From: Albula goreensis
Taxonomy: Eukaryota; Chordata; Actinopteri; Albuliformes; Albulidae
Assembly: GCA_022829145.1 (NCBI GenBank)
Contig: CM040758.1
Coordinates: 14,468,628 to 14,532,627, forward strand
Direction of reading: 5' to 3'
Length of the DNA: 64,000 nucleotides
In this document: piece after piece, positions 22,101-61,235 of the stretch
How positions within the stretch are numbered: position 1 is the first letter of the stretch
Layout: each line of letters begins with the position of its first letter
Made by a program: the position numbers and the translations under genes
Notes under the pieces: model-generated
The model's database searches: none
What the model was told of the DNA's origin: nothing
Seen by the model: the letters and a program-made list of their open reading frames with translations, nothing else

Positions 22101-23505
22101 TGAGTCAAGTTAAATTGTCACATGTGTAGGACTGGAAAAAAAAATAGAGATGAACAGCAATAAGCTAGAGGAATCACGAAGTGAAGTCTTCCATGTTTGA
22201 TGGCTGGTGAAGCGTTTCTGTTCTGCTGCTAGTTTAGACATTGAAAAAACAGGTAGTAGCCACCCTTTGTCGGCATTGTGAGAAGTGTTTTTTCTTAGCT
22301 ATTATTGTGGGTAGATGTAGACAGTACGTCACACACATAAGCAGAAACACACAGCGGACAGTTAAATATCTCTCGCTCTTTGAAATTTAATCAACCTGTT
22401 TCTATTTTGCTCACCAGGTTGTATATTATTGTCAACACGCAAACAGTTATTGGTCTGTCAAAGAACATGTTTCCTACACATACACTGTAGCTATGTGGAC
22501 ACTGCATATACATTAAAGCAATTAAGCACCCATCTTTAAGTAATTTTAGGATGAAGGTTGAGCTAGTTTATATCACTTGAATTAATATCGGATTCACGTC
22601 ATTTGTTCGGCATCACTTGAAAATAAGTCTACACATCCTTGGTTTGTGTATTTCAATGCAAAATCGTTCTCGCAGGCTGTAGTATCACATTATTATTCAA
22701 CACAGTTTTTAAGGTCTTGCAAAGAGTATATGGGTGAATCGCGTCTGCTTTCAAATGATCAGAGATTCTGTCTGTAGTGTTTAAACGTTTATAGCTGAAG
22801 TCAAACTGAAACGCTCCAACTGTTTTGCAAACATTTTCATGGAGAGTCTGCTGATCAAATTTTAGTCTGGCATATCGATATTATATGCTAACATCACAGA
22901 AACCAAAAAGTTGATGGCGATGTATGAAAATATTTTTCAATATATAATTAAAAATCAATTAATGTTACAGCTCTACCGGTTCCGGATCTGTCTGCCAGAG
23001 TGGCTCTTAACCTTGTAGTCTGTATTATTGATACAGAAGCATAACACATATAGTGGATTTCTTTGAAGAGAACTGACAGACATTCAATATGTTCCCATAC
23101 AAACTGAAATACTTCTGAGACGCACCTATCTCCTTACCTGTCAACGGCTATGGCAGTCATCGAATATATACTGGCAAACACTGCGGTTACGGGAAAAAAG
23201 TTGTGGAATTTGCAATACGATTCTCCGAAGTACCATTCACCATGAGCGGCGTATATGAAATTAATAAGAGTATTGAAAGCGGCCATTGAGGCATCAGAGA
23301 AAGCCAAATTGAGCAAAAAGTAGTTGGTGACGGTTCGCATTCTCTTGTGGGCCAGTATTATCCATATAACAATCAGGTTCCCAAAGACAGCCACAGCTAG
23401 CACCGAACTGTAGGCGACCGACCACAGCGCAACTCGCCACGGCGGCTGCACGAACTGGTTCGTAAAGTTCCCAGTTATGTTAGATGCGTTGGTTGAAGAT
23501 GCCAT
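16787..23505 (-). CDS. tacr3: Tachykinin (neurokinin) receptor, NK3-type, 5' part (three exons)
   Basis: This is a class A G-protein-coupled receptor for tachykinins such as neurokinin B, acting at the plasma membrane of neurons, mainly through Gq. Exons on the minus strand are 23505-23138, 17454-17266 and 16937-16787, all with GT-AG borders. They give the first 236 residues. The ATG at 23505 is chosen because the frame upstream has no ATG. The N-terminus has three N-glycosylation sequons (N6, N9, N13) and the family signature NQFVQP. Also visible are TM1 (about 27-51), TM2 with LAFSD (D71), the disulfide cysteines C98 and C173, and the DRY motif (122-124), whose arginine codon is split by intron 1. 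TM4, TM5 and the conserved EIPGD and AKRK at the exon 3 end follow. Intron positions match the vertebrate TACR family. Sequence resembles TACR3 more than TACR1. Exons for TM6, TM7 and the C-tail are off the left edge, so the gene is partial here. Confidence 0.9.
17455..23137 (-). other. Intron 1 of tacr3
   Basis: A 5.7-kb intron from donor GTAAGG (23137) to acceptor AG (17456-17455). It contains one long TG microsatellite and no supported gene. Short open frames here are non-coding in character. Confidence 0.8.
19049..19109. repeat. (GT)n microsatellite
   Basis: About 30 uninterrupted GT units. Translated frames across it (Thr-His or Val-Cys runs) are artefacts. Confidence 0.98.
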
Positions 23506-24046
23506 GTCAAAAAAAAAATCTTCCTTATGTCCTTGTGTTAAAATCGAAATATTTGCTTTCAGTGAGCTTTCTCGATGCGCAAAGTGGTCCAAGTTTGGAC
23601 TGCAGGGGACCACAACAACCGCGTAGTAACCATCTAAAGCTCACTTTGATCAAAACTGACACCTAGAAGCTGTCAGCTCCGATAGGTGGTTGTTAGGGTG
23701 AATATCATTAGATCGCAGCATCGTGGCACTGTTCTGAGGGCATTTCATAAGGCTCGGGAGCGGAGCAGTCTATGGTTAATTCAAACGGAACAGATGGTAT
23801 GTAGAAGCGGCAACAAGTGCATCAGTCTCGAGCTGGGTACAAACGCTGTTGCTAATTTAGTTCAGTACACAATTAGCAAGAACGTTTGGTTTTATTCAGA
23901 CATGCCCACAGTGACGCATCCGGCTAAGCGGTTACTCTGGTGCTCAGACGGACATGGATCGATTGTTTCGTGTTGGGTGAAAATCAACAGCGGGGCAAAT
24001 GGGCTGGGTCAGGAGTGGTTACAATGCTAATCAATTTAGACAGAAG

Positions 24047-24214: not shown

Positions 24215-24761
24215 ATACAGCCCATACATTCATACCAAAACTTCTTGAATGGTTGATTTTATGACTTTTTTGTAATGCTATCATTGTCTGTTTTCAGTAC
24301 TGTTAAATGTTGTGGCTGGTGGGTGGAAGTGTGGTCACAAGCCAAACCATATGAGAGTTGAGGGTCTAACACTGGTGAATGGCAGAAACTGTGTTTGCAT
24401 TTGTATATGGTACCTGTTACTGTAATCTGTCAGCATCCAGCACACTGCACTCAGTGATATATAGTGTTAATGACTATCACAGTATGAGGTGAACCACAAA
24501 TAAGTGGAACCTCGATATGTCTGAAATACAACAGGGATGACACATCCCACCTTGGACCAGGGCTGTCACCAGGGTTGATAAAAATTCTGAGGTCACAAGA
24601 CTGAGAGAAAACTCTGGCTATGGTGAAACCCACACGGAGTGCTGCCTAACAGCTGCAGTACAGAGGTGTTTGGCAGGTTTTGCTGAAAGCAAAAATCATC
24701 TCCTGATTTCACAAGCAGCCTGTTCCGTTTCTCAGTTCATCATTTTTACAGAATTAAACAT

Positions 24762-24762
<1 letters not shown>

Positions 24763-24836
<74 letters not shown>
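24763..24836. repeat. (CA)n microsatellite
   Basis: About 37 CA units, followed by a broken CA tail. Confidence 0.98.
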
Positions 24837-24837
<1 letters not shown>

Positions 24838-25439
24838 CAATGCACGCACACACACAACACTGAGGACAATAACCAAATTGTGAGGATCAACACACTTACT
24901 AGTCTAGGGTTGCCAATGTTCCGCCCAGATGTAGGAGTGTGTGAAAAATGAAATGGAAATGAATGAAGTTCCAGCTGACAGCACACTGACAAGAGTAAGT
25001 ACCAGCCTGGTAGCTCCAAACTGGAGAGCCCAGGCAGTGAATATGACTGGGTATTCAAGACTGACAGAAAAAAGGAGAAAAGCATCATATGTAATGTTGA
25101 TTATACCTCTAATAATATTATAATTATAGAGTTGTTGCATATTGAACATATGTCAATCTTGATATTGTTGATCCTGTGGATAATTAGCAAATTGCAATAG
25201 TAAATATTCAATTTTTAGTGGTCTGAAGGGACATTAAATCATATTTGATTTTGTAATTGAGGTTGTGTTTGGGAATGTGTCATCCCCAAAGTTTGGAAGT
25301 CCTCTGTGATCATGGACAGCAGAATCACTAAAGCAGGGATTTTCAAGTAATGTTGCTGGTGGGCCACTTTACATTTCTGAGTGAAGTGGCCAGCCTGTTT
25401 AACACAAAGCACATAATAATATTACATTATATTATAGGC

Positions 25440-39778: not shown

Positions 39779-42700
39779 TTAATCTTTCTTTTCTTCTTCC
39801 TCACCCTCCTTCTTTTCCTCCTCCTTCTCCTCTTCTTTCTTTTCCTCCTCCTCCTCCCCTTCTTTCATTTCCTCCTCCTCTTCCCCTTCTTTCTTTTCCT
39901 CCTCCTCCTCCCCTTCTTTCTTTTCCTCCTCCTCTTCCCCTTCTTTCTTTTCTTCCCCTTCCTTCTTCTCCTCCTCTTCTTTCTTTTCCCCCTCCTCCTG
40001 TCGCCTCTTCTCTTCCTCCTCCTCCTGTCGCCTCCTCTCTTGCTCCTCCTCCTTTCGCTTCCTTTCTTCCTCCATCCTCTTCATCATCATTCTCTCCTCT
40101 AACTTCCATCCTTTCTCTACTTCTCCCTCCTCCACCACCTCCTCCCCGGTGATCTTCTCCATGTACTTGATTCGCAGCCTCATGTTTTTCAGTGATTCCT
40201 CATACTGCATCATCAGACGTGAGAGCTTCATCATCATGAGCTCCATGGTGCTGTACAGCCGGTTCACCTTCTCCTCCAGGTCCTTAGCATCAGGGATCAG
40301 GTTGGCAGGGTCCAGGTCTATCAGGCCATCCTTCATCAGGATCTGTCGGCCCTTCTCCTCCAGCATAGTCTTGGCCTCCGGGTACTCTGTCAACGCCTCC
40401 ATCAGGTCATCCTTGGAGAGGCAGTAGAGGTCGGAATACCCGATGCTGCGGATATTAGCCGTCCGACGGTTGCCAGCCTTGCTGCCTTTGATGTTGAGAA
40501 TGCTGATTTCACCGAAGTAGCTGCCATCGCTAAGAACCACAAACTGCGTCACGCCATCATCTGCTACTACTGCCAGCTTCCCCTCCTTGATGATGTACAT
40601 CTCCCGCCCGATATCACCCTTCTTGCAAATGTAGTCACCAGGGCTGAAGACCTGGGGCTGCAGCTTGAGCACCAACTCAATCAGGAGCCCGGCTTCACAG
40701 TCCTGAAAGATCCGCACCTTCTTGAGTGTGTCCAGGTGGACATTAATGGCAATCTCGGCCTTCAGCTTGTCTGGCAAGTACCTGAGTACCTGCTTCTCAT
40801 CTGCTGTCTTCTGGTTGTTCCACAGGTAGTCGAACCATTTGATGACTCGGTTCTCCAGGTCCTTGCTGACCTTCCGGACATGCATGTACTGCTTGATGCA
40901 GTCCACCTTGGCCTGAAACTCAGCTCTCACAGCACTCATGTTCATGATCATGGAACTCACATTTCCTACAATGGTAGCAAAGATTAGTACACCCACCAAG
41001 AAGTCCACCACCACAAAGAAGAACTCAGAGTCCAGCACAGGAGGAGGTGTTTCACCAATTGTGGTCAGGGAGAGGGTGGACCAATATAGACTGAAAGCAT
41101 ATTTCCTCTCCAGCTCTCCAAATTCAGGGTCGTTGACATCAGGATACACCCAGGTGTCAGAGCCAAAGCCGAGGTACTTGGAGAACGAGTAGTAGAAGCA
41201 AGCGTTCCAGTGGCTGATGATGAGAATGTACATGACCAGATTGCCGATGCGGAAGATGTTGGTGTAGACAGTCCTGGTCTCCGTGCGGCTGAAGAACTCC
41301 AGCATGCGCATGACGCGTAGCAGCTTGTTTAGGCGGATCTCCGGATAAGATAAACCCAGGTAGAAATACAAGACATCGGTGGGAATCATGGAAGCCACAT
41401 CCAGCTTGAACTGGAAGCTGTCCATGTATTTCTGGCGTAACTTCTTTTCATCTTTGACTAATAAGCCTTGCTCCAGATACCCTGTGTGTGAAGAAGGACA
41501 GCGTACGTATAGCAATGTAATTAGGGTATACCATAAAACTATTCAATGAATCTAAACATATCAGTCTTTCCTTTTTTTGTAACACACCCCTTATAGTGGT
41601 TGAATATATTCCAGTCTATTGTAAAGACATACATATATTGAAATATATACCATGTCACTAAGGCACAATACAAAGTACTATTGACAAATAGCATAGTTCA
41701 CCTTAAACTGAAAACACAGAACATGTTCAGCTTAGGATAGCTTTGCATGGATGCCTTATATATGTTTCATATTTCATTCATCATTGCCAATTAACTGACC
41801 TGTTCTGGTCCGGAAAGCCATGTCAGCCAGGTATATAACATCAGATACATAGTCTAGGATGAACCAGGTTTCCAAGTATTTATGTTGAAATTCTTCAAAA
41901 CTGGCCCTGCAAAAATAAATAAATAAAAAATAAATAAATAAATAAATAAATAAATAAAAAACAAAGAAGATTGTACAGATGCTTGGCAAATATCAAATTT
42001 CCCCCTTCTTTGCACCCTTACTTGTTGGCCACCTGTAAGCACCTCCCTTCCTTTGATGTGAGAGGAGGCGGCCCTAGGCCTCTCAATCATGTGATGACTG
42101 GCCCTCTCTTCTGGGACTGGGACTCCAGCATGGCTGGGTCTCACAGTCCCAGTCACTGGGCTCATGCCTGCTTCCCCAAAATGCATCTTACTGCATGATT
42201 GATGGAGGATACTAATTTGTTCTATTAATCAAATCCAGTTTCTTTAAATTCCAGGACATTTGATCATCCATTAAGTATAGGAGCTTTTCTATCATGCATT
42301 TGAAAAAACAACATCAGTTTGTGTTAAATTTCCTAATTCTGATGCAATTCAGTGAGTATAAAAACAGGCAGAAAACAGATACTGATTGTAGTGTACCTGG
42401 CAATGATCATAGTCCAGTTGTACATCACAGGCATGGCAATGATGAAAAGCCAGTAGTAGTATAAAGAATCTGCTGGGTTAATGACAAACACTTCTTTTGG
42501 CCTGAAAAAAAAAACACATTTTAATGATAAATGAAAATTTCCAGACCCTACTGACTTAAAAATATCACATGAATTGAAATACCTACCCATCTTTTTTCTC
42601 TTCCTTTTTCTCTTCCTGAGCTTGAAAGGGCCACTTGGGAAATTTGAATGGCAGTTTCTCTGGCAAGGGGAATGGCAATGGGAACGGTAATGCCCAGCCC

Positions 42701-45400: not shown

Positions 45401-47211
45401 AATGTAGCATCTGAGGTCATTCCATAATCACAGAACCCAACTTGAGCATATGGTCCGGTCAGAGGGGGTACGGCTGGTGCCCCGCGGGCATGCTGCTCCC
45501 TCAGGCGGGTTTTGGAGAGGCTCAGGCCGGTCTACTGGAGGAGTGCGCTGACCCAGTGGGGATTTGAGGATTGGGAAGGGATGAAAATTATCACCATTAT
45601 CCCCCGAGATGATGGGTGTGGGTGGTGGTGGTGGGGGGGGGATGTTCTTGAATATGTATGAGCTTCATTATTATGCAGAAGAAAATGAGAAAGAGGGATG
45701 TGTTGGATTTTGGAGTCGTAGAAAGGGACAGATGGGAGGCAAATCTGTAAATATGTATAAAGTGAAAGCATTCAACATTGGGCAACACTCTGTATCTAAC
45801 TGGATTACACACCAGCTTGTGTCATACTGGGCACACCCGTATGCAAACCATGTCCAGCAGACTGGGCAATTTCTCTTCATTACTCATGGGATCCCCAGGC
45901 CAACGGGTGACATCACAATTCATTTGCATGTCTCTTATCAGCAGACTGGCCAATGTGAAGTGGACATAAGATCGAAAAAGCTGCCAAAAATATTTCCAGA
46001 ACTGACACTTGAATTAAAAATTAGAAACCACACACATTTAACATTTTATATCTGCAATGTCTGTGGTAAATCAGTCCCCGTCAGAGAGGAAAATAGCTGT
46101 ATTATATGGATTTATTTATTTACTTATTTATTTATTCTATGGATCCTATTATTTTGGGACATTTGTAATATTTATCTGGTCTAAGCATGTTTAGCGATTA
46201 ATGTATGAGGCCTGACATGCCAATGTTTTAGCTAATAAAAATGGACTCATTTAGTCCATGCGCAGACAACTACATGGAGGTTGACCCGGACATGTGGCCA
46301 TATAAGAAGTTCAGTAATTCCTTGAGAATTGGTCCCCACTCTTCCTCTATGGTCTCCTGTCTGCTTCAGATAATCCCCTGGTGCATTGTGGGACTTTGGG
46401 CTCACCTGTGGGAAGGTTCACCTTGAGAGGTAGGGATTACCCCCTTCCCCCCCAATACACCAGCTTTCTTCTGTTCTGCCCTCTCAGCAATTCCCTTGGC
46501 CAGATCGCTCAATCCTATTAAATCAAGCTCACTACCTTAGCCCTTCCCACTTAAGGACAGCCCCTCCTCTCTGTGACTGACACTGAAAATTTTCTGCTCA
46601 AACTGAGGTGTGGACAAAGCAAATTACAGCCCCTGTACAGAAGTAACATTTTCTTGTATTATTATCAACTGCTGTAAGAGATTGTTCTGAGGAAACATTT
46701 AGAAAGCATCAAGGGCTACTTCAATAACACTTCCATTGAAAATCTTTATTTTTCTAAGCATTGTATCTCAGCATTCTCTGAACTAATTTTAATGAAACGT
46801 TTGGCCAGGCCAAGTTAAACAGTCTACTAGAGCCACCAGCTGGGATTTTCATTGTTAGCAAGAGGAGAATTAATTTTCCTTTTTTTTTTTAAATTTATAA
46901 CACACGCTGACTAAAAATGCAGGAAAATTGACCAGAATCAATGATCATCAATGACCAGATTACATTAGCTTGACTGGACATGGTGGATGCATTTTTTGTT
47001 AGCTTTTGTTAATTAGCTACCCGTCTAGGGTACATGTTGTTTGAACCTAAGTATGACATATTGCATATATAAATTAGATGCATATATGTGTGTGTATTTA
47101 ATTTATATGTTTATGATTCTTAATAACATGAAAAATAATTAAGATTAGATGGCAAATTGACAATTGCTTCAAAGTTGCATCAGATTTTTTGCAGTGTGTG
47201 TAAAACAAATG
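45401..47211. other. Intergenic region between cnga1 and SCPP-A
   Basis: It starts with a GC-rich patch (about 45430-45640, ending in a G-rich run) and continues AT-rich, with a TTTA/TTTATT repeat at 46111-46136. An open frame of 191 codons on the plus strand (45609-46184) starts in the G-run and shows no known domain or splice context. I treat it as non-coding. Confidence 0.5.
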
Positions 47212-47217
47212 TTTATT
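47212..47217 (-). terminator. Candidate polyadenylation signal of SCPP-A
   Basis: AATAAA on the minus strand, about 315 bases past the stop codon at 47531. Confidence 0.55.
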
Positions 47218-47530
47218 TCAAGAAAAAAAAACAGGACAAATGGGTATCATTTTCATACACCAAAGGGGAGCTGTCTGTATGGACACAGTTTTCCACAGAA
47301 TCAGGGCAGTAAAACAGACTGACATAAAAAAAAACATGGATCGCAAGGACAACTGTCCATGTTTCATCATATCAATTTGGACACACTTTTGGATTTTTGT
47401 TCACGTATAAAATCAAACCATGATATCACACTATACTCTGCCCACCCCTTGGGCGGGGGCTTCTCCTTGTGAGTAGGGGTTAAGGGTCTTCATGGTGCAG
47501 GTAGGAGGGCACCCTGGTAGCTGCAGCTGC

Positions 47531-49688
47531 TCACTGGATTGGCTGTGGGGGAGCAGCTTCTGCATCAGTGAGGGGAGTGACAGCCATGTTGTCCTTGACA
47601 GACAAGTCAGGACTGTCCACACTCAGAGAGAGGTCTGCAGGGGCAGGATCTGCAGGAAGCTCAGCAACAGCTACCACGGCAACAGCAATGACCTCAGCAG
47701 CATCGGGGGAAGGGTTGACTGCAGTGTCCATGACGACAGTGTCCACGGTGGCAGCCGGTGGAGCTACATCAGTGGGGATGCCCATGGCTACTGTCTCTGG
47801 GCCCTGTGTTCCAGGCAGGGCTGGCTCTGCCTCAGCCACCCCAGCCTCCGGACCCCCTGCCTCGGCTCCCTCCGCCTCGGCTCCCTCCGCCTCGGCTGCT
47901 TCCGCCTCCTCAGAGTTGGGTGATTGGGCAGGCATGGTCCCCACGCCGTCCTGGGGCTGAAATATACAGGAGACAAGTACACCTGAGATTTAAGAGCAAA
48001 CTCACTTAAAATCCTTGCTGTCAGCACTGGTTATCCCAGTTAAAAGTGAGAAAAATGCTGTTCAGTGTGTATGATATAGAATCATTACCACGACTTCTTC
48101 TTCTGACTCCTCACCCTTAAGCATCTGATTGAGAAAAATGACAGAGATTGAAAATCACCACTATATAAGATAACTGAGTAAGTGATTCTGTGATGGTTCA
48201 TTATTTTTTCACTTTTCCATGGACACTGCAACTCACCCCGGCCATTCCAGGAAAGAAGATGCCCTGTTTTCAAAAGAACGCAGCATTGTGTTACATACAG
48301 ATACATTTGCACATGACTGCTTTGTACATAACAAAAACACTCTAGTTTCATATGTGTTATATGCAATATATATCAATTTGTGACTGCATGTGTGTGTGTG
48401 CATGTGCTGAAGGTGTATCTGTATGTGGGCTTGTGTGTGTAAGTCAGACCTGATTACAGCTGTTTGTGTTCCAGTACCAACCTGTGCTGGAAGCTGTGGC
48501 TGTGCGGCTGCTTGGTTCACCTGTGTAAGAACAGTAACTGACTAAACCAGTAAAACTATCCAATTCAAAATGCAATTAAATATCAGGACATTCAGGTCCT
48601 ACAGAGATGAAACTGTTCCAGCACATCATTAATTGGATTGTGCAAATGTTCTCCTTTCATTATATTCATTTTCTAACAGAGCTAAAACATTTCAACAAGA
48701 GACTTAACCGCTCTGGTTCTGAGGGTACACACTCTGCACACTGCACACTGTCTGAATGTTTGAAATGATGTCTACGTAGATAGAGCTTAATGGTTCATAT
48801 TGATCCATGATGTAATAACACAACTTCAGCATGAATTCCCACATTTGTGTGTTAAGTAACCAGTGCATTGCAGCCTGTGGTGGATATTGGCTAAATAAGA
48901 AAGGGCAACCAGACACAGGGTGCACAGTACAGAGGGCGTTTAGTGTGTGGGGTGTGCTTTACCCCAGGGGCGGCTGGCTGTGCCTCTGCTGGGTTGGACT
49001 GCTGGGATTAAAACAGATGAAGTATTGATCAGTTCAGTGGTCATACAAATATCAAGTATGTCTCAACATGAGGACAGAGTTCATAGTCATACGAGTGGTT
49101 TTCACAGACCTGGTGCTGAAGAGTGCTGTACAACCGATACATCTGCATGAGTTCCTGTGGAGGACACATTCTTTATTCACTTATTCTGCACGACAGAATC
49201 ATCACTCTTGTGCAAATATTCAAGCCCCTGCTTATATGATCATCATCTTACCTCATTACTTTCACTATCTCCCACCTGTAAAATATGAACATGGAGCTGT
49301 CATGTCCCTGAATTCAGCAGTGAGTAAAGAAAAGTAACAGTGATAAAGCCAGTGATGGACTGCCATCATTTCCTGGCCAGCATTCATAAAACCCTAATAT
49401 TTCACATTATTAGTAACCTCACTCACATCTTGCTTAAATTACTCATGCAAGACTCCATTGTAACTGTTCCTTTCAGCTTTCCAATTCATATAGTGGAGAT
49501 GCTGAAATATATTCCCAGGGAAACTGAATGAACACAATGTAATACTGTATAAAATGAATATCTAAGTAAAAAAATAAGTGTCTCTCTTACTAATAATATT
49601 TTGCAGGGGTGCATAAAATTATGAGGGCACTTACCGGGAAAGCAAGTGATACACACAGCAGACTACTGAAAAGCAGCACTGTCTTCAT
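47531..49688 (-). CDS. SCPP-A: secretory calcium-binding phosphoprotein, Ala/Glu/Pro-rich
   Basis: A predicted secreted matrix protein of mineralising tissue. Eight coding exons on the minus strand: 49688-49635, 49275-49252, 49154-49110, 49001-48963, 48520-48482, 48263-48237, 48124-48089 and 47956-47531. All introns are phase 0 and total length is 229 residues. Exon 1 is a signal peptide (MKTVLLFSSLLCVSLAFP). The next exon, VGDSESNE, has a Ser-X-Glu site for the kinase FAM20C, as expected for the second coding exon of SCPP genes. Then come ELMQMYRLYSTLQHQ, two short P/Q/A-rich exons, GIFFPGMAG, and MLKGEESEEEVV with another Ser-X-Glu. The 141-residue last exon has an acidic AE/EG repeat and ends PPQPIQ. 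It is GC-rich, unlike its surroundings. Family assignment rests on gene architecture and composition. I cannot name the orthologue (SCPP5, ambn, amtn and others are possible). One donor (GTCTGT at 49109) is weak. Confidence 0.8.
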
Positions 49689-49963
49689 CTTGGATTTTGG
49701 TTATGAGAGGGAAATTTCACAGTACAGTCAGTTTAAGGATGGCAAAGTATTTCCAATAAAATAAACATTAACTTATGAATAATTATTTTTTTAATTTACT
49801 TTCCTTCTCTAAACTTTTTTAAGACTAATGGAGGTGTTTTAGGCAATTGTCTTCAACAATGATTACAATTTTAGAAAGCGCAAATGAAAACACCATATTA
49901 AACATGTGCATATGCATGTGAGCTACAAGAATACACAATCTCACAAAGTAAATTGATACTTAC

Positions 49964-50076
49964 CTTGTCGGGTAATGTTCTAGAGATCTCAATAGCAAGA
50001 CGAACTGCAGTGTTCAGAATTAAAAGTCTTGGTGCTTCTCAATCATTCTCACAGCTAGGATGAACAGAATATAAAT
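49964..50076 (-). promoter_or_regulatory. Promoter and non-coding exon 1 of SCPP-A
   Basis: A TATA-like TTTATATT lies at about 50069-50076, roughly 30 bases ahead of a stretch that ends in a strong donor (CGACAAG followed by GTAAGT at 49963). The signal-peptide exon follows about 275 bases on. An untranslated exon 1 is the rule for SCPP genes. Confidence 0.55.
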
Positions 50077-52391
50077 GTTTTTTTCTCTCAAAGACAGCCA
50101 ATCACACTTGAGCACATTATATATTTCTCCGCATTTAATTTAATTGTTACCTAAAATCCCCCTTCAAACTTCAAGCTGGGATTATCTGTTAATTACTCCA
50201 TTACATTTAATTACATGGTGGGGGACTCTTCGTTTGCAATTCTTGGAAACCCACCGATACCTAAAACTTAAAAGACTGAAGTTCATAAGGTGTTAATCCA
50301 CTCCTTTTAATTAAGTGAAACCTATATGTGTATATTTGATTAACTTGAAAGCGCCTTTAATCCACATTTGTGAGACTGAGAGCCAAGCTGCCTGCATAAA
50401 ACGAAGTACATAATTAACGTTTCAGTTAAATCATATCTTCTTCTGAGGACATTAACTATGTGGGGGAGGGGAAAGAAGGAATGCTCACAGACTGATAAGT
50501 CTGGAGATACAAGCCATAAATTCCACCTGTAGATTGTTTTTTCAAGCAAAAGTGACATATTTAAAACTTTTTTTTCCTATTTAAAGCTTGGGGAGTTATG
50601 GTTGAATAGGACAATGGATTCAGTCACATGTGCAGGCTTATCTTGATCAGATAAGCCTTAAATTATATGGTAGCGTCCAAAATTGGGTGTTGTGGAAACA
50701 TTCTTATCTCTACAACAGGGAGAAAGTCAGCAGACAGGTAAATATCTTGCCATTCTGAATCTAGCCACCCAGCCTGCAAAGAGGTCATGGAGCTGTGATC
50801 TGCTTTGGAAATGTAAAGTTAGCACAATGACACTGAGCGGTGTTTTAATCTTGAAACTCCATGAGCGTTGCCTTCAGACCTTCTTAAGCCTCTCTGTTTT
50901 GGGTGGAATGTTCAGCACTTTACTGTGAATTGATATCCTCAGGAGTCTGATATTCAGATATTAAGATGGAGCCCAGAAATGAACTTCTTGTTGATATTGC
51001 AATAACATAGGAAATCTAAAGGCGCTATATACATCCACATACTTTCCTCAGCCAAATGTAACATTTGGCTAAAAGTTTATAAATGTGTGTACTATGACTT
51101 CACCTAAATTCAGTTCATTTTAATGACTTTAATCTTTAATTTCCATCATTCTGTTGAAAATACAAGCTGTCTTTAAATTCACTGCATGTACAGTAGGGCC
51201 CAAATGTCTGAGACCACTTCCCCATTCATCGTATTTCAATATGTCAATATGGCAGGAGATAAAATGAACATTGAGAAAGAGGTTTATAATTGAAAACAAA
51301 TCAAAATGCTTCAATAAAAAGCAGATAAAATTCTAAAATGACACGATTCAACCTTATCTTTCCTCGTCTCAGGTCACCAAATCCACCAGCCTTTGATTTC
51401 TTTTCTGTTTGGAGCATATAAATACGAGCAAAGCTTCCCTCAGTCAACAAACTGTCTACAGCGTTATGGTCCGATCACCCTGCTGCTGTGATACTGCAAA
51501 AGGTGGGTCACCATGCAGTCCCTGAATTTCCATCTCCTTCTGCATGACATTAACATTATACAATTCACTGTAACTCTGTTGTACTCTTTATTGTTTTTGC
51601 TCTTTCCTTCTGTATCAGTCCATCTTAGGTATACACATATGAATGGTACTGTCTCTAAAAGGGTCATGTACACTGGTTAGCTGACTCATTTAGTGAGTAT
51701 GTCTTTTATGTGGCCCAGCATAGGATAATTTTCATACAAAAGAAACTTGACAATGGAAATGGAAAGAGAAACATTTACAAAGCAGTCATGTTTTATGTTT
51801 GGTGTATTTATTTTAATAAGGGTTGAGTTATTCTGTAAATATACCTGAATCATTGGATCGGAGTTAATGATATCAGCAAATATAACTAATCAAACTAATG
51901 TAGGAACTACTGTTAGAAAAATTATATATACATATACATAAAATACCTTTTGAACATTTCTATATTCATTTATTCATTGAACATTTATACATTTATATAT
52001 TCACCGAATGCAAATATTTGAATACAAAGAAACATTATTGTAAAACGACTCTCAGGTTTTTGACTCTTTATGCTTGGAGGTTTAATCTCCTGTATTAAGT
52101 CGTCTTTCTTGTTCACAATGGCAGAGTACCAAATGCACTGGGATCATTACAGTTAGGGCACAGCTTGCTGTGGGAGTGTGGAGTCAAAAAGGCTTTTTCT
52201 CTGCTGCTGCTGTGGCCCTCTCAGGCTGAACCTGTAGCCCCTGCTGCAGCAGCAGCAGCAGTGAGAGGAGTAAGTAATACTCTATCATACTCCCACCCCC
52301 TCTGACATTACTGTGAGAGTTACCCAGCAATAATCACAATAATGACTTCGCAATCAACATTATGCAAACACTTAGAAGCTTAAGGCACTCA

Positions 52392-52478
<87 letters not shown>

Positions 52479-52708
52479 CGCGCACTTGCAACACCTTTTT
52501 CATCTTGTTTTGACTGAGCGAGGCAATTAAATTTGGCTGGTGCAAAATGAAAGGATGAGGAGAATGAAAGCTACACAATTGTACTCCCTCTCTTCGTGTG
52601 ATTCTTCCAGCGGAAAATGATTGTTATAGAGAACATTTCTGATGTGGTAGATGCATGAATTCTTATAAACAAATAAGACAAGAAAATGAGAGGATATTTT
52701 GTCAAGCA
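50077..52708. other. Intergenic region between SCPP-A and SCPP-B
   Basis: No complete gene is supported. It contains a plus-strand TATA box (TATAAATA at about 51416-51423) followed by CTCAGTCAACAAAC. An exon-like block at 52211-52255 could encode AEPVAPAAAAAAVRG between an acceptor and GTAAGT. Compound CT/CA repeats lie at 52393-52478. A further SCPP gene or remnant is possible but no signal-peptide exon was found. Confidence 0.45.
52393..52478. repeat. (CT)n(CA)n compound microsatellite
   Basis: CT units from 52393 to about 52457 with one TT break, then CA units to 52478. Confidence 0.97.
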
Positions 52709-52714
52709 TTTATT
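52709..52714 (-). terminator. Candidate polyadenylation signal of SCPP-B
   Basis: AATAAA on the minus strand, about 930 bases past the stop. The 3' UTR appears spliced (donor at 53627, acceptor ending at 53508), so this is only one possible end. Confidence 0.3.
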
Positions 52715-53644
52715 TTTCTCTTTCTGTACAGGAGCCTTACAGGATTAATGAGCATGAATGGCCGTCACATTTAGGAGATTTCATAACTGCTTTTGTGCTG
52801 TTGCTTCAAGTACATTAGTCACATGCAGCAAAAAATACATTGTTTGATATTATTTACATTAAGAGTTATATTATGAGCAACCTTGTGTGCAGTATAGTAT
52901 ATATTTTGGTGTCCGCAATGTGTTTTTTGTCATCATTCAAAATTCTAAATATTAGTAATCATGGTTAATGTAGACCTAGCTTATAATGTTGGAAAGTACA
53001 GTTGGAACACATAACTTGGCACAACATCTTTTGCAGTCAAAATTTTGATTTAACATTGGTTACTTGTCCAGAAAGAGAATTAATGTATTATAAACCAGAA
53101 TGCCAATGATGACACTAAGACTTTGCTTTCAAATCCATATTTCAATACTGTTTCATTCGTAACATACAGCACATATTACACAGATGTAATGGAATTCCCA
53201 TGATCAAGTGAACACATACAATGTTCTTTCGAAGAATTGGGGTATTGTGCACAGAATGACATGTTCTGGATGCCTACAGAGCAACAGCTAATGTTAATGT
53301 AGAGTAGCCTGCATAAATAATGAGTGCTGATCGGAATCAGAGAAATTTTACAGCAATGTCATGAGCACTCTGAGGCTGATGTCTCTAAAGACACTACCTG
53401 CTACCAAGTATTTGCTCAGCATGTATTAAAACAACATAGCTAAAACAAAGTGGTGAAACGCTTTTACCATCCGTGATTCCAGTTTCATTCTCGGACCAAG
53501 GCAGACGCTGGAGAAAGAAAAAAAACAAGACTGACTTTAGAAAAAAATCCAGTGGGATCAGAAGGTAATTACAGAAAAATTTGGGCTAGCACTCATTATG
53601 TTTTGTAATAACACTATATTGACTCACGTTGTTGAAATTCTGCC

Positions 53645-56600
53645 CTAAGGTGCTGCTGGAACCTGTTATAGGAAAGCAGATATTTTAGAGACAAGGCAGA
53701 AATATGAGCTGTGAGAAAGCAGCAGATTGTCTGAATGAGTATTGATGTGGAGGTGACAGAGCTTACGTTGAGGCCTGCCTGGGCAGGCTGGGCTGGCTGC
53801 TGAGGCTGGGCTGGCTCCTGCGGTAGCTGCTGCTGCACTCCAAAGCTGGGGAACATCTATAAAGAACACATGACACTTTTTACACTGTACACTGAGCACA
53901 CAGTATGGCCAATCCCATATTTGAGTGAGTATTTCCCCAAACTGAATGAGAATCAACATTTTTAGATGATGCAGAATGTCCATAGTTGCAGAGCAGATAT
54001 TGAGATTATTAACGAAGGCATTTCTTACATTGTTGTTCTGTTGAGGGCCTGTTGGTGGCAAGAATCCATAGGGGAAGAGCTACAAAACAGGCAAAGATAA
54101 GCATAAATTGTGCCATACAATGAATTTTCGAGGTGTCTAATCTTTAACTGACATTAATGTTTTTTTTTTTAAATAACATTAACAGTAACATAGAATACAG
54201 TCTGTCTCACATTTGGGATCTGATGAGGCAGCTGGGGAACATTTGGGATCGTGGGAATCATCTGCAAAATAACACATCAATTATTAAACGCATGATCTCA
54301 AATCGAAATATATTTAACTATTAAAAATAAAATATGTTTACTGCATTTACCTGCTGCTGCTGAGCCAGATCATATGGGTAGAACTAAAGCAATAAAAATA
54401 AAATTAGATTTCATTCCACAAATATTTATTAGAATGAAAAAAGGCTGTTACCTAAAAGAAGTACAGCATGATAAAGTATAAAAGTTACCAATTCTGTAAA
54501 ACAAGTATGTAATGAATGTAATTTAACACAGCTATCATAAAGCATTACTTGCATTGCTTATAAATTCAGAAAAAAACTAATTGGTATAAAAACAAAAACA
54601 GCATTTTGGGGAAATCAATAGCGCCACAGGCAAATAGGCTATAAAACCCTTCCTGCAATTAAACAGTTAAAACAAAACGAAGAATGAGAAATAAAAATCA
54701 AAGGAAGACTCACAATTTCCATGCTATGTCTTCCAGGAGCCTTTGGGATCTTATATTTGATAAACGCTTGTGACGGAAACCCCTGTCAGATAAAAAATAA
54801 AATTATTGATGCTATTATTCATGCCGATTAACTTTTCACTCAAGATAATCAAGAATACACCTCAACTAAATGAGTCTTTTAATTAAAAGTGTCTTTCAGT
54901 TTTAGTCAAATGTAAGTGGGGCAGAGTTCAAAGTAGCCTTTGGGTCACTTACTTGTCCAGTCTGCTGCCCCCCTGTGGCCTGAGAGGGAAACCTTGGAGG
55001 AAACACCTGTAAAAACAGGTTCGAGTCAATTTCACATAATTAAAAATCATACTTAAGTTCCTGTCCATTATTCAGTTACCAATACAGTTGACCATCCCAC
55101 ATCAGGGGGTTAGGGGCTAGCATAATATTTATTTACATTAATATTACACACATATTTTATGCATTTATGACTTACTAAAATTTTTTAAGTTTCCTTTCCT
55201 ATTCGCCAGCTACGCATGTCTTCTGCGTGCTATGCGATTTTCCCTCACAAGGACGCAAAGCTCCCAAAAAATTTGCATTTAATTGTGTGTTGACGAACCA
55301 CAAACAATGTAATATGTGATGTGAAAAGCCGTAATGCGGGAGGGTCACCTGTATTTTTGCACTTCACTGCATAAATACTTTGAAAGTATTGGCTGACATT
55401 TATCTGACCCAACTCTGCCTAAAAGAGTGCACCCTTCTTTTTTTTTAAAAAAATATTTAAGTATGCAATGAAAATACAATTATTCATTATTCTCTTCATG
55501 AATTATTCATACAACAGAACACATAGGTTAAATATGTGTTAAAAACTTTTAAATACCAGCTTATAGCTGAAACATGAAGGTAGTGTAAGCCAGAGGTCAA
55601 CCAAGGCAACGCTACACTATTTAGCATTCTGTTTGATGTAATGATCAGTGAAAGAAAGTGATGATGACACGTACAATCTCCATGCTGATGGGGGCTGCCA
55701 TTCCTGGCTGCGGCACCACTTGAGCTGGTGCAGCAAAATTGCTGCTTCTCTGAAAAACAAAATGCACAATCTATGAAACAGCACCCACCATCTAACGTTT
55801 AGCTAAAGCACAAAGGCAGGCTCTAGTGGGAATGCCTTCAATAAGATGGGAACAAGGGGGAAATCATTGTAAATATAAGCACCCATGCAGCCATTTTAAT
55901 CTAGAAATGTATTTTTTTTTATTCTGACTGATCCACATGCTCATTATTTTTAATTTTATGCACAGTGAAGAATGTAAATATGACAGCATATCAGCATGTA
56001 TTTTTTACTTTGTCAGAACTCTCTCAGTCCATGGACATGAAAAGTGTTCCTCTTCATGTCAGCTGTGTTTACTCTTTTTGCTCTCAGTCCTCTGCAGACA
56101 TAAGCTAAATCTATCATTGAATCATTTTTCTTCACTGTATGTCCCTTCCCATGTAACTGTTTAGAATATGTTACTTCACAATGGTGTGCTTGTCAGGGTG
56201 AGGTATTCTACTAAACCCATGTCATATATTACTCTGCAGTTTATTGCATTTACCTGTGGAGGCTGGCCTGGTTGCCGTGGAGGCCCAATCTGGGGCAGGT
56301 AGTCATACAGGGAAGTCATCTATAAACAGTTTCTCTGTCAGTCACCTCACACCCAGTTACAGCACAAGCTTACTGTTTTAGTATGTTATGACTGATCTGA
56401 TAATAAGACAAGACTGAATAGAGAGCTAATTCAAATATAATAATTGCATGTTATTGTAACCACTATTAAAATACAGAAGTAACAAAGTTAGTCTGCATAT
56501 ACATAGATGTTTAAAACACTGCCATACCCTGATCTTTGTACAATTATTATAAGTACTATTATATGTACAAACGAGTGTGAATGTGTGTGTCTTCACAACA

Positions 56601-56667
56601 ATTTAAAACTTACTGGTGCAGCACATATTGTACTGGCAAAACACAAGCATGCGATCACAGTCTTCAT
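53645..56667 (-). CDS. SCPP-B: P/Q-rich secretory calcium-binding phosphoprotein, ODAM-like
   Basis: A predicted secreted protein of tooth, scale or epithelial matrix. Ten coding exons on the minus strand: 56667-56614, 56319-56254, 55749-55675, 55006-54953, 54782-54714, 54383-54351, 54261-54211, 54079-54029, 53856-53767 and 53662-53645 (stop). All introns are phase 0, giving 186 residues. The signal peptide MKTVIACLCFASTICAAP is one exon. The mature protein is rich in Pro and Gln (PPRQPGQPPQ, QEPAQPQQPAQPAQ). The fifth and sixth exons join as KIPKAPGRHSMEI plus FYPYDLAQQQQ. This carries a Ser-X-Glu kinase site and recalls a conserved segment of odontogenic ameloblast-associated protein. SCPP-C has the same junction. 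The last coding exon holds only five codons before TAG and the 3' UTR continues through introns, both typical of SCPP genes. ODAM or SCPP9 identity is possible but unproven. Confidence 0.82.
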
Positions 56668-57019
56668 TACTGAAGAAAATTCTGTAAAATGAAAATAAAT
56701 GTTGCATGTAAATATATTGACAACACATGATTTATCTGATTTTATCCAATTTTATCAGAAATGACACATTCATTCTTTTAGGATACAATAACTATATTTA
56801 AAACTCTGTATATGTTATATGATAATTATATCATGAGATTGCTCAATTTTTGTATCTGTAATTGCATTGATACCTGTCTGACAGTCACTGAGCTATGCAG
56901 GAAATAACTTTTACAGCTCAGAAAATTTTGTCCTCTATGTACATTTAAAAGTGGAAAAAGCTTATCAAACCAGCTGGACAAAGAAAGAGAAGTTTGCCTG
57001 AAAATGAAAACCTTTTCAC

Positions 57020-57127
57020 CTTGCTTGACACCGAGAAGCACAGGGTCTTGATGAATGTAGAGCAGGTCTGAGTTGAAGTATCGGAGGGGACACTTTTAAA
57101 CAGTTTGGGTTTGAGAAATCAGCCAAT
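57020..57127 (-). promoter_or_regulatory. Promoter and non-coding exon 1 of SCPP-B
   Basis: On the minus strand an inverted CCAAT box (GATTGGCT, about 57121-57128) is followed by TTTAAAAG (about 57093-57100). An untranslated exon then ends at a donor (AGCAAG followed by GTGAAA, boundary 57020). The signal-peptide exon is about 350 bases further on. Confidence 0.55.
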
Positions 57128-57758
57128 CAGAGCCTGTCTACTTGCTGTGCCATCACCAGACAGGAAAGTGAATTGTTTTGTCCAGAGATTTGGAAAATGA
57201 CCCCATGGTAAGGCATGTAATCTCTTTAACTGTAGGTTACTTCTGATTGCACAGTCTGCAGTTCTGCATATCATACCGTTGTGCAGGTTTCTACAAATCT
57301 AAATGCTTACAAAGTACATTTGAGGCATTTGTCCATGTAATGGACAACTCCACAGATGTGAATATCTCTCTGTGTAATGCTATTGTTTTATTGTCTTTTC
57401 TTTAATCCATCTTTCCTGGGATCTATTGCCATTGGAAAAAATCACACCATTGCTGTCATATTGTGCTTTGTGTGAGTATGTGTGAATACATAAGTAAACA
57501 TACTCACACATGCATGTTTTCATATATCTGTGTGTATGCTTGATGTTGTAATCCAAGACTTATATGTACTGTAGATTTATACCTTTAATTCACAGCTTTA
57601 TTATTTAGTCATTTTTATCTGTGTCAAGAGGGGATAAGCAAGATATGCTTTACTTTTAACTATTTTAGTAATACTGACGTGGAAAAGAAAAACAGATAAT
57701 GACATTGCTTTTCTAAGTAATATTAAATGAACAAAATCAGAGAATGTATTTAAAATGG

Positions 57759-57764
57759 TTTATT
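57759..57764 (-). terminator. Polyadenylation signal of SCPP-C
   Basis: AATAAA on the minus strand, some 220 bases after a strong acceptor (TTTTTCCCTCAG, exon from 57982). That exon is a likely untranslated last exon. Confidence 0.55.
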
Positions 57765-58112
57765 TATAACAGAAGCAGAGTAAATAGCTGTTGTTTGGCT
57801 CCTCAGAACATTCTGCATTCAAATAATAGCACCAATTACTTATACATCTATATAAGCACAAGTTATGCATACAGTATTCTAGAGCAAAGGTAAACACTGC
57901 ATTCCTGTATTTACTAAACTAAAATCAGCATAGCATTCATGTTTTAGTTTCACAATATGATTTCGCCAATGCTGTAGTTTTCCTGAGGGAAAAAGTGAAA
58001 AATCCATATTAGTTATGTTTCATATACTGGAAATGTCCTGTAATTACTAGCTAAGACATATCATGCAGATAAATTCCACCATGTTAAAAATGAATAGATA
58101 CAGGGGCTTACA

Positions 58113-58115
<3 letters not shown>

Positions 58116-58154
<39 letters not shown>
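58116..58154. repeat. (CA)n microsatellite
   Basis: About 19 CA units in the last intron of SCPP-C. Confidence 0.97.
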
Positions 58155-58158
<4 letters not shown>

Positions 58159-58350
58159 AGTTGTTTATAAATAGTTTTTTTTGTTTGTTTTTTATGTGTA
58201 TTGCATAAAATAACATAGTAATTTTCACTTCTTTCATTCTTGTTCTAGAGATACACAGACATAAGTATGTCTAGCACATTCAATGTTGTGGCTGAGCACC
58301 GCTAATGAAAAAGTGCATTCTCACCGGGACCGGAGAGCCGACAGACAGAC

Positions 58351-60907
58351 TCAGTCATCCTCTGTGTCGTCATCGTCTCCATTGGGTGGGGCCGCCTGTG
58401 ATGACACAGATACCGGTGATGAGGGGTTATGAGCCTAACGCACCCGGTAACCCTCTCCCCTTCAGAAATCTCTACAGCAAGAAGCTACATGCAGGCGGAG
58501 ATGCGTCTGGGATGGTAAAATGCATATTCTAGTTTGTACAACTGTTAATTAAAAAACAGGCTACTTTTCCTATTATCAGTAACATACCTGTGATGTCTGA
58601 GGAGATCTTAACATGTTATTGATTAAATTGTTACAGCTGCAGAATTTGTGCAACAGATGATAAATGTTTTTTTTTTTCATAATGCAGTATTACCATATGA
58701 AATGCAACTCATTTTTAAATATTTTTTTCATACCTTTTACAAAAGTATATAGCTTCATTTTTTAGCAGAAACAATGAGAGAAAATGTCTCCTCAGAAGAA
58801 AACACTTGTGTGCTGTTTACACTAAAAATAAATATGTGCATTCCAAGTTAGAAAAGGAAAGGGGTCATACAGCAGCCACTGGGGCCACAGGAGCAGCAGG
58901 GGCCAAGGGGGCTACAGGTTCAAAGCCAAAGGGATACAGCTGCGAAAGGAGAGAATTAAAACTTAATTAGAAATGTTTCTTATTATAGGAGACATACAGT
59001 ACAAATGAATGACTGCTGCACACTATTATTTATAACTAACATTACGACAGAAAACTGCCTTCAGCCATGTAGCTGAAGCTATCCTGCTGTGGCTGGGAAG
59101 CATGTGTGCAGGAATAGCTAAGGTGAAATGCTGTGCTCAGGGGAAGATCACAAGCCTAAAAAGGGTTATAAGAACAGATTCTACATGACTGTACTCGTGA
59201 TCAGATCGCTCCCTGCACAGTGAAAGGCAGCACTCACAATCTCGATGCTCTCTCTGCCGGGAGCCTGGGGGATCTCATGCTTGATGAACCCTCTGGCTGG
59301 AAGCACCTGGGGCGAAAGTGAGGCCATCAATCACATGGATACCAGCAACACCTGACCCCGGAACAGTCCTATCCACCCCACTGCCATATTGTAATTACCG
59401 TTCCCATGGGAAAGGATTTACCCAGAAACGCTGAGTAGGCTGACTATCCATCCGACTAATGAATAATGACTTCATATGAAATATTTACAACTAGGAGAGA
59501 TGGGAAAGCAATGGACCTGTGGCCTTCCAGGGCTAAACCTGCCCAGCCTTGGGCAAAAGCAAGTTCAGACCGTGTGATGCACAATTCCACCGATTCTACA
59601 GCCATTCTCCCTCTGGCTGCACATCCCCAAGCCCAAGGGATGCTATGAATGTAAGCATGATGAGATGCCTATTCCTTTACAGATTTGTAGGAATTTATTT
59701 TAATGCATCTCCATACCTGCGCAGCCAATTGCCATCCATATCTAACATGCGCATCATTTGAATTAGAAATACAGTTTTCAGGAATGTATTTTCATGTGAT
59801 TCAGCCCTCACATAGCAATACATTGTGATGTAGTAACAGGCATATAATTGTTAAAGGCATTTGGGCATCTCACTCAAATAATCAGCTTAGCGACTAATTA
59901 GCAAGAAATGGGTGAATGACTGAATAAAAACATGAGCATAATGCATCAGCTAAGGGAATGCATTCTGTTAAGTTCTGATGTTTTGCACTTGTGCTCTACT
60001 GTCTAATTATTTTGATCTGCCAGAGTTGCAAATGTCTTGTAATTTTTTTAACCTCATTAAAAAGTGTGTAGGTCTGGACCTGTCATAAATATTTGATCTT
60101 AGTTATGTTTGCAATCAAATTCAGTTTTACAATTGAATTATAAACAAAGGACATGTTTGTTTGTTTTATATACTGATGAGTATCTAATGTAATTCTGTTC
60201 ATATGTCTATATTTCATCCCTGAAACAATAACAAAACAGTAAAGAGCTTTAAAAGAGTAAAGCATCTTGTACATCTACTTTAAGACCCTGTATTCATGCA
60301 AATGACACCTGAATCTCCCAGTACTTTATTTTTCAATGTGCTGATTAGAATACATGCTTTATTAATGACTTACCGGGGCAGCTGGTGGCTGAGCTCCAAG
60401 AGCAAGAAGCTGCAGAGTGTGTGAGACAAAATTATGAATGCCAGTCATGCATGGAATCCCAGACATCAAGAGGTCAAAGGTCAATCAGGCTACTCACGAT
60501 CTCCAGCTCAGCAGGCTTCAGGGCTGCTGGCCTGGCAGCAGAGACCGGCTGGGCTTGCTGCAAAGAAAACACACCAGTGAGAGGGCAGTACAGGGTTTCT
60601 GACTGCTGCTGTATGTCACCTTCCCTACGCTGACTTACAACCATCTTTAAAGATTAAGAGGGAGGAATCAATATGTATGCAGACTCACTTGAGGAATAAG
60701 GACTGGTTTTAAGTCCAATTCAACCAGCTGCAGCCTCTGTAAGGATAAGAATTTGCAGTCAGCTCACTCGTTAATGAATTCATCTGTTGTATACACTATG
60801 TACTACATGTATTATGTACTATATTAATACAAACAGAAAAAGGACAGACTTACTGGGGCCCCTAGAGCTGAGCCAATGATGCACACAAGCAGGAGAGTGG
60901 CTTTCAT
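58351..60907 (-). CDS. SCPP-C: short secretory calcium-binding phosphoprotein with acidic tail, paralogue of SCPP-B
   Basis: A predicted secreted matrix protein. Seven coding exons on the minus strand: 60907-60854, 60736-60689, 60557-60498, 60409-60374, 59306-59238, 58939-58871 and 58395-58351 (stop TGA). All introns are phase 0, giving 126 residues. The signal peptide is MKATLLLVCIIGSALGAP. The fifth and sixth exons read FIKHEIPQAPGRESIEI then LYPFGFEP, matching SCPP-B exon for exon and keeping its Ser-X-Glu site. The sixth exon continues as a Pro/Ala/Val run and needs donor GTATGA at 58870. If that donor were not used, translation would stop one codon later. The last exon ends GDDDDTEDD, a strongly acidic, potentially calcium-binding tail. 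A donor at 58324 and an untranslated last exon at 57982 follow. SCPP-C ends about 0.7 kb before SCPP-B begins, fitting tandem duplication. Orthology is not assigned. Confidence 0.8.
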
Positions 60908-61145
60908 TCTCCCCAAATATGCTGTGAACATTTAATCCAGTTATTATTATCAGTTTGCATTGTGTTTGTATTAGTATTATTATAGCAACAACTATAACTA
61001 AAATATTTAAGATGCATTATGGTAATACTTTTTTCCTCAATTACTGTGCAATGCTCAAAAATAAACTCTAAAAAATAACTCTAGATTTGACCTTTCCTCT
61101 TACAATGCACACTCACTGTGAGCCAGATATCAGATGGTCTTTTAC

Positions 61146-61235
61146 CTTCAGCAGTGCGTGTCATATCACAGCAGGATAGTCAGGCTATAGTGCAGTACGG
61201 CGTGCAGACTGAGGAATGGTCCTCATCTTTTTATC
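61146..61235 (-). promoter_or_regulatory. Promoter and non-coding exon 1 of SCPP-C
   Basis: A TATA-like GATAAAAAG (about 61226-61234) precedes an untranslated exon that ends at a donor (GCTGAAG followed by GTAAAAG, boundary 61146). The signal-peptide exon follows about 240 bases later. This arrangement repeats that of SCPP-A and SCPP-B. Confidence 0.55.

Follow-up and report, generated by a model that had tools for sequence, protein, structure and literature searches.

Three neighboring genes with a common exon plan

The window (the whole stretch of 64,000 nucleotides of Albula goreensis DNA that was analyzed) contains three neighboring genes on the minus strand, here designated A, B, and C, which were rebuilt from the sequence with a total of 25 coding exons. 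Gene A occupies approximately 61.2 to 57.8 kb and has 7 coding exons encoding 126 amino acids, gene B occupies approximately 57.1 to 52.7 kb and has 10 coding exons (186 amino acids), and gene C occupies approximately 50.0 to 47.2 kb and has 8 coding exons (229 amino acids). An initial annotation of this DNA had proposed three such minus-strand genes with 25 coding exons, and all of them were found. Every coding exon is open with intact splice borders, and all 22 coding introns begin with GT, end with AG, and lie in phase 0. The exons had been described as phase-0 units of 18 to 90 nucleotides (nt), which is accurate for the phase throughout and for the size of 24 of the 25; the sole exception is the last coding exon of gene C, which is 426 nt long including the stop codon.

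Each gene carries an 18-codon signal-peptide exon that starts with MK and ends with Pro, as previously described. Both strands of the whole window were scanned for such exons, defined by an ATG, a length of 15 to 23 codons, a basic residue at position 2 or 3, and at least 7 of 10 strongly hydrophobic residues, followed by a GT[A/G]AG[T/G] donor. The three minus-strand matches are exactly the exons of A, B, and C, and there were no matches on the plus strand, with settings that were picked after these exons were already known and that apply a hydrophobic-core rule in place of a dedicated predictor.

In all three genes, the signal-peptide exon is exon 2 and is preceded by an exon 1, which ends at 61146 in gene A, 57020 in gene B, and 49964 in gene C. 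The initial annotation regarded exon 1 as TATA driven and untranslated. TATA-like words do lie upstream, at 61235 for gene A (GATAAAAA, 61228..61235), 57100 for gene B, and 50074 for gene C; however, the minus strand of the window holds 200 such words (3.1 per kb), so they are weak evidence and were set aside. In the deposited models of all three genes, part of exon 1 is treated as coding. Spliced 3' ends, also proposed for each gene, can be modeled for A and B from splice words but not for C. The putative 3' untranslated region (UTR) exon of gene A, which is supported by splice words and an AATAAA, spans 57764..57982 on the minus strand, with 57764 being the start of the first of several AATAAA/ATTAAA words; that of gene B spans 52714..53507 (minus strand), with an AATAAA starting at 52714. 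In the model of gene C, the stop codon and the AATAAA (start at 47217) share one exon, and the 3' end is unspliced.

The genes had been presented as members of the P/Q-rich class of SCPP (secretory calcium-binding phosphoprotein) genes. The family assignment is firm for A and B and very probable for C on the basis of protein matches and gene order. Only B is strongly P/Q rich (33.9% P plus Q, versus 20.6% in A and 17.9% in C), and placement of A and C in that class would follow from their orthologues. The proposed Ser-X-Glu sites are present, with one in A, two in B, and three in C, counts that do not account for chance frequency. All three proteins are expected to be disordered.

Predicted orthologues of teleost SCPP genes

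From exon 2 to the stop exon, gene B spans 53628..56681 on the minus strand, and its prediction equals the deposited protein AGOR_G00191310 (P0001) over 100% of its length. Its coding exons lie at 56667-56614, 56319-56254, 55749-55675, 55006-54953, 54782-54714, 54383-54351, 54261-54211, 54079-54029, 53856-53767, and 53662-53645. A search with this protein returned 22 proteins at an E value of ≤0.01, all from teleosts as judged by species name; the top five were from Albula, Aldrovandia, Anguilla, Synaphobranchus, and Megalops, and the last four of these are 77 to 82% identical to gene B. Eight of the 22 are named SCPP5 in full, and six more carry a name that is incomplete before the number. 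Some names among the matches in these searches are unrelated, such as gamma-gliadin (a gene B match) and translation initiation factor IF-2, and names alone are therefore weak evidence. Identity to the four elopomorph proteins (P0002-P0005) extends over all 10 coding exons, at 57 to 100% per exon, whereas the proteins from salmon, minnow, and anchovy (P0006, P0008, and P0009) lack some of the residues of gene B, most of them from coding exons 3, 7, and 10. Sequence similarity firmly identifies gene B as the predicted orthologue of teleost scpp5.

Gene A spans 58325..60921 on the minus strand from exon 2 to the stop exon, and the prediction equals AGOR_G00191320 (P0025) over 100% of its length. 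The coding exons lie at 60907-60854, 60736-60689, 60557-60498, 60409-60374, 59306-59238, 58939-58871, and 58395-58351. Among the 25 proteins matched at an E value of ≤1, 14 are named SCPP7 in full; four others have an incomplete name, and the rest, including that of Albula itself, are unnamed, hypothetical, or uncharacterized. In an alignment of 12 of the 25 matches, 20 columns are invariant, among them GFIK and YPFGF. Gene A resembles teleost scpp7 in its signal exon, in the LL, GFIK, and YPFGF blocks, in an Ala/Pro-rich run, and in an Asp-rich tail. Its Ala/Pro run is shorter than in the aligned percomorph sequences, and its deposited model, unlike teleost scpp7, already starts in exon 1, from an ATG that is in frame; the Asp tail is absent from one of the 12 aligned sequences (P0044). 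Gene A is thus firmly assigned as the predicted scpp7 orthologue. In this search no named elopomorph besides Albula was matched, a weak observation given that the search requires shared five-residue words and that tarpon does not appear in the list of fish without scpp7 in PMC13367325.

The coding part of gene C spans 47531..49688 on the minus strand and equals AGOR_G00191300 (P0023) over 100% of the prediction, with exons at 49688-49635, 49275-49252, 49154-49110, 49001-48963, 48520-48482, 48263-48237, 48124-48089, and 47956-47531. Its search at an E value of ≤0.01 returned only two proteins, the deposited model of gene C and a Megalops atlanticus protein (E value, 3.5e-17) that is called Enamelin in UniRef. 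The local match is 57% identical and covers 22% of the query; in the full-length alignment, 52 of 88 residues are identical in the first seven exons and 54 of 141 are identical in the last exon. Both proteins contain the blocks DS.SNE, MQMYR, and FPGM, the residues SEEE, and a tail rich in Ala and Glu, and gene C has a gap of ten residues where the Megalops protein reads GGHGGFYPPY. In Pfam, predicted A and B had no match, and predicted C had a single chance match below the threshold (Neurokinin_B; E value, 1.3); among five deposited proteins that were scanned, including two from bonefish, four had no match and one had two sub-threshold matches. An SCPP or enamelin family was matched by none of the proteins scanned, including gene C and the Megalops Enamelin.

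Gene C is most likely the teleost orthologue of enam, formerly fa93e10, as suggested by its sequence together with its position beside scpp5, which it has in common with teleost enam; the name is not proven. It could instead be another P/Q-rich SCPP gene, such as a diverged neighbor, with the real enam located elsewhere. The single relative outside its own species, the origin of the Enamelin name in a database record, and the lack of a Pfam enamelin match for either protein would fit such an origin, but gene C occupies the place that fa93e10 has beside scpp5 in other fish and shares 52 of the 88 residues of its first seven exons with the Megalops protein called Enamelin, and we regard this alternative as unlikely.

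An exon common to scpp5 and scpp7

The scpp7 exon at 59238..59306 on the minus strand (VLPARGFIKHEIPQAPGRESIEI) is related to the scpp5 exon at 54782-54714, with 13 of 23 residues identical and with 10 of the 20 nucleotide differences between the two at third codon positions. With signal peptides removed, the best ungapped match between proteins A and B has a BLOSUM62 score of 106, which was reached by none of 300 shuffles. Similarities of C to A and to B do not rise above those of shuffled sequence (192 and 87 of 300 shuffles, respectively, reached the observed score), and a common origin of C with A or B is consequently not shown by sequence. The exon common to scpp5 and scpp7 is, on this similarity, the apparent mark of an old tandem duplication, in keeping with the description of SCPP5 and SCPP7 as likely paralogues (PMC4895719).

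Gene order and identity of the cluster

With gene C as probable enam, the order C-B-A within the window corresponds to enam-scpp5-scpp7, three genes in tandem. Two of ten otophysan fishes have been described with a single cluster of fa93e10, SCPP5, SCPP7, SCPP6, ODAM, SCPP9, SPARCL1, and SCPP1 (PMC5713400); the other eight have two separate clusters, of which the longer one also contains fa93e10, SCPP5, and SCPP7. The order taken from that paper is the order of its listing, which is assumed to be chromosomal. According to a medaka paper (PMC10568847), fa93e10 is the teleost enam and scpp6 is the teleost ambn, and the bonefish order agrees with the published teleost order of fa93e10-SCPP5-SCPP7-SCPP6 (PMC5713400, PMC10568847). 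The minus strand between 61.24 and 64 kb, where ambn would be expected next, contained no recognizable fourth SCPP gene among open stretches of at least 35 codons, in a light search that exons shorter than 35 codons would escape, and scanning the window for signal exons yielded no fourth one.

A survey of 63 teleosts, including two elopomorphs (Kawasaki 2026, PMC13367325), lists scpp5 under cluster Ia but not under Ib, and the bonefish cluster was taken as Ia for this reason. The cluster might instead be the second copy (Ib) from the teleost genome duplication, since co-orthologues of enam and scpp7 are reported in both Ia and Ib (PMC13367325); in bonefish, however, scpp5 sits between these two genes, and an Ib identity is very unlikely. 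The window almost certainly holds part of the known SCPP cluster Ia of teleosts, namely its enam-scpp5-scpp7 segment. This cluster and its genes are already described in the literature, as is the relationship between scpp5 and scpp7. Albula, which is also an elopomorph, is not mentioned in that survey of 63 teleosts (PMC13367325) or in the 19 other papers surveyed.

Proposed functions and gene integrity

Each gene would produce a small secreted protein, with the signal peptide encoded by one exon and the remainder by a chain of rapidly evolving phase-0 exons. The Ser-X-Glu sites would be phosphorylated by a Fam20C-like kinase, and these sites, together with acidic segments (the DDDDTEDD tail of Scpp7, for example), may bind calcium and apatite in the matrix. 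By analogy with fish orthologues, Scpp5 would be secreted by the dental epithelium and odontoblasts and the enam product by the dental epithelium (and by skin in zebrafish), with both possibly destined for enameloid, dentin, or scale matrix, and Scpp7 would be secreted mainly by skin and scale cells. For bonefish, we infer expression, phosphorylation, mineral binding, and function from these orthologues. In zebrafish, knockout of scpp5 leads to less tooth mineralization (PMC13312475), and enam has also been reported in skin (PMC13367325). The link between scpp7 and scales comes from its expression and from its loss in scaleless fish (PMC13367325). Scale loss had earlier been claimed to depend on scpp1 and scpp5 (PMC4895719), which has been disputed (PMC13367325).

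Loss or impairment of two of these genes has been reported in other elopomorphs, with scpp7 described as non-functional in both conger and European eel and with enam of the European eel described as missing, non-functional, or truncated (PMC13367325), which raises the question of whether one or more of A, B, and C might be a decaying pseudogene. Given that none of the 25 exons is interrupted or has lost its splice borders and that the conserved GFIK and YPFGF blocks and the Asp-rich tail of Scpp7 are kept in bonefish, decay is even less likely than an Ib identity. Bonefish scpp7 is open and its probable enam is short and open, in contrast to the state of both genes reported for European eel (PMC13367325). 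Elopomorphs may conceivably serve as an independent natural experiment on whether scpp7 loss and scale reduction are linked, a suggestion that is put forward tentatively.

Deposited models and start codons

The A, B, and C predictions are 100% identical over 100% of their length to deposited Albula goreensis models, whose locus tags are consecutive (AGOR_G00191300 for C, AGOR_G00191310 for B, and AGOR_G00191320 for A) and whose records all give a contig of 28,768,000 bases. The tags of the enam-like and scpp5-like proteins of Megalops are also consecutive (MATL_G00222280 and MATL_G00222290). NCBI names all three bonefish models "hypothetical protein," and UniRef names A and C "Uncharacterized protein."

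The deposited models are longer at the N terminus than the predictions, by 11 residues in A, 22 in B, and 25 in C, and because they begin further upstream the predicted start codons are provisional. In gene A, the extra residues are MTRTAEAYLGR, read from an exon 1 ATG (61164-61146, minus strand) at which the deposited model starts and whose frame continues, once the intron is removed, into the signal peptide. In gene B, the residues just before the signal peptide correspond, by eye, to predicted exon 1 spliced to exon 2. The deposited scpp5 models of Aldrovandia (VLLGVKQE) and Synaphobranchus (VLLGVKKE) have similar residues ahead of the signal peptide, and that of Megalops (LLIGVQEE) has less similar ones; the Anguilla model begins at the signal peptide. 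The resemblance to Aldrovandia, Synaphobranchus, and Megalops supports the junction of exons 1 and 2 in gene B. Translation of the upstream residues is nevertheless doubtful, since exon 1 of SCPP genes is normally untranslated.

The initial annotation had suggested that the three genes might be unannotated or lineage-specific, noting that homology-based pipelines usually miss such exons, and a similar point, that SCPP genes often escape similarity searches, is made in the methods of Kawasaki 2026 (PMC13367325). New members of this kind would agree with the uninformative bonefish names and with the one relative of gene C outside Albula goreensis at an E value of ≤0.01, but the presence of all three genes in the deposited annotation, the many teleost relatives of A and B, and the known gene order make this scarcely credible. 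The three genes are ordinary, already annotated members of a known cluster, as orthologues of teleost scpp7, scpp5, and, most likely, enam. The analysis offers these likely names for the bonefish models, which were deposited as hypothetical proteins, and one more elopomorph can be included when SCPP genes are compared with scales and teeth; the general picture of the SCPP cluster is unchanged by the bonefish genes.

Other features of the window

A long CA/TG dinucleotide repeat at 24541-25100 is open in frames on both strands and was rejected as a gene because it is a simple repeat. Part of a tachykinin receptor gene lies at 23134-23640 (minus strand) and is closest to the neuromedin-K (NK3) receptor (E value, 8.5e-60). 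An open stretch of 587 residues at 39779-41542 (minus strand) is most like cyclic nucleotide-gated (CNG) channel alpha-1 (E value, 3.2e-236) and has at its end a long tail rich in Glu and Lys. Another open stretch, rich in Lys and located at approximately 42.6 to 43.0 kb, may belong to the N-terminal part of the same CNG channel gene.
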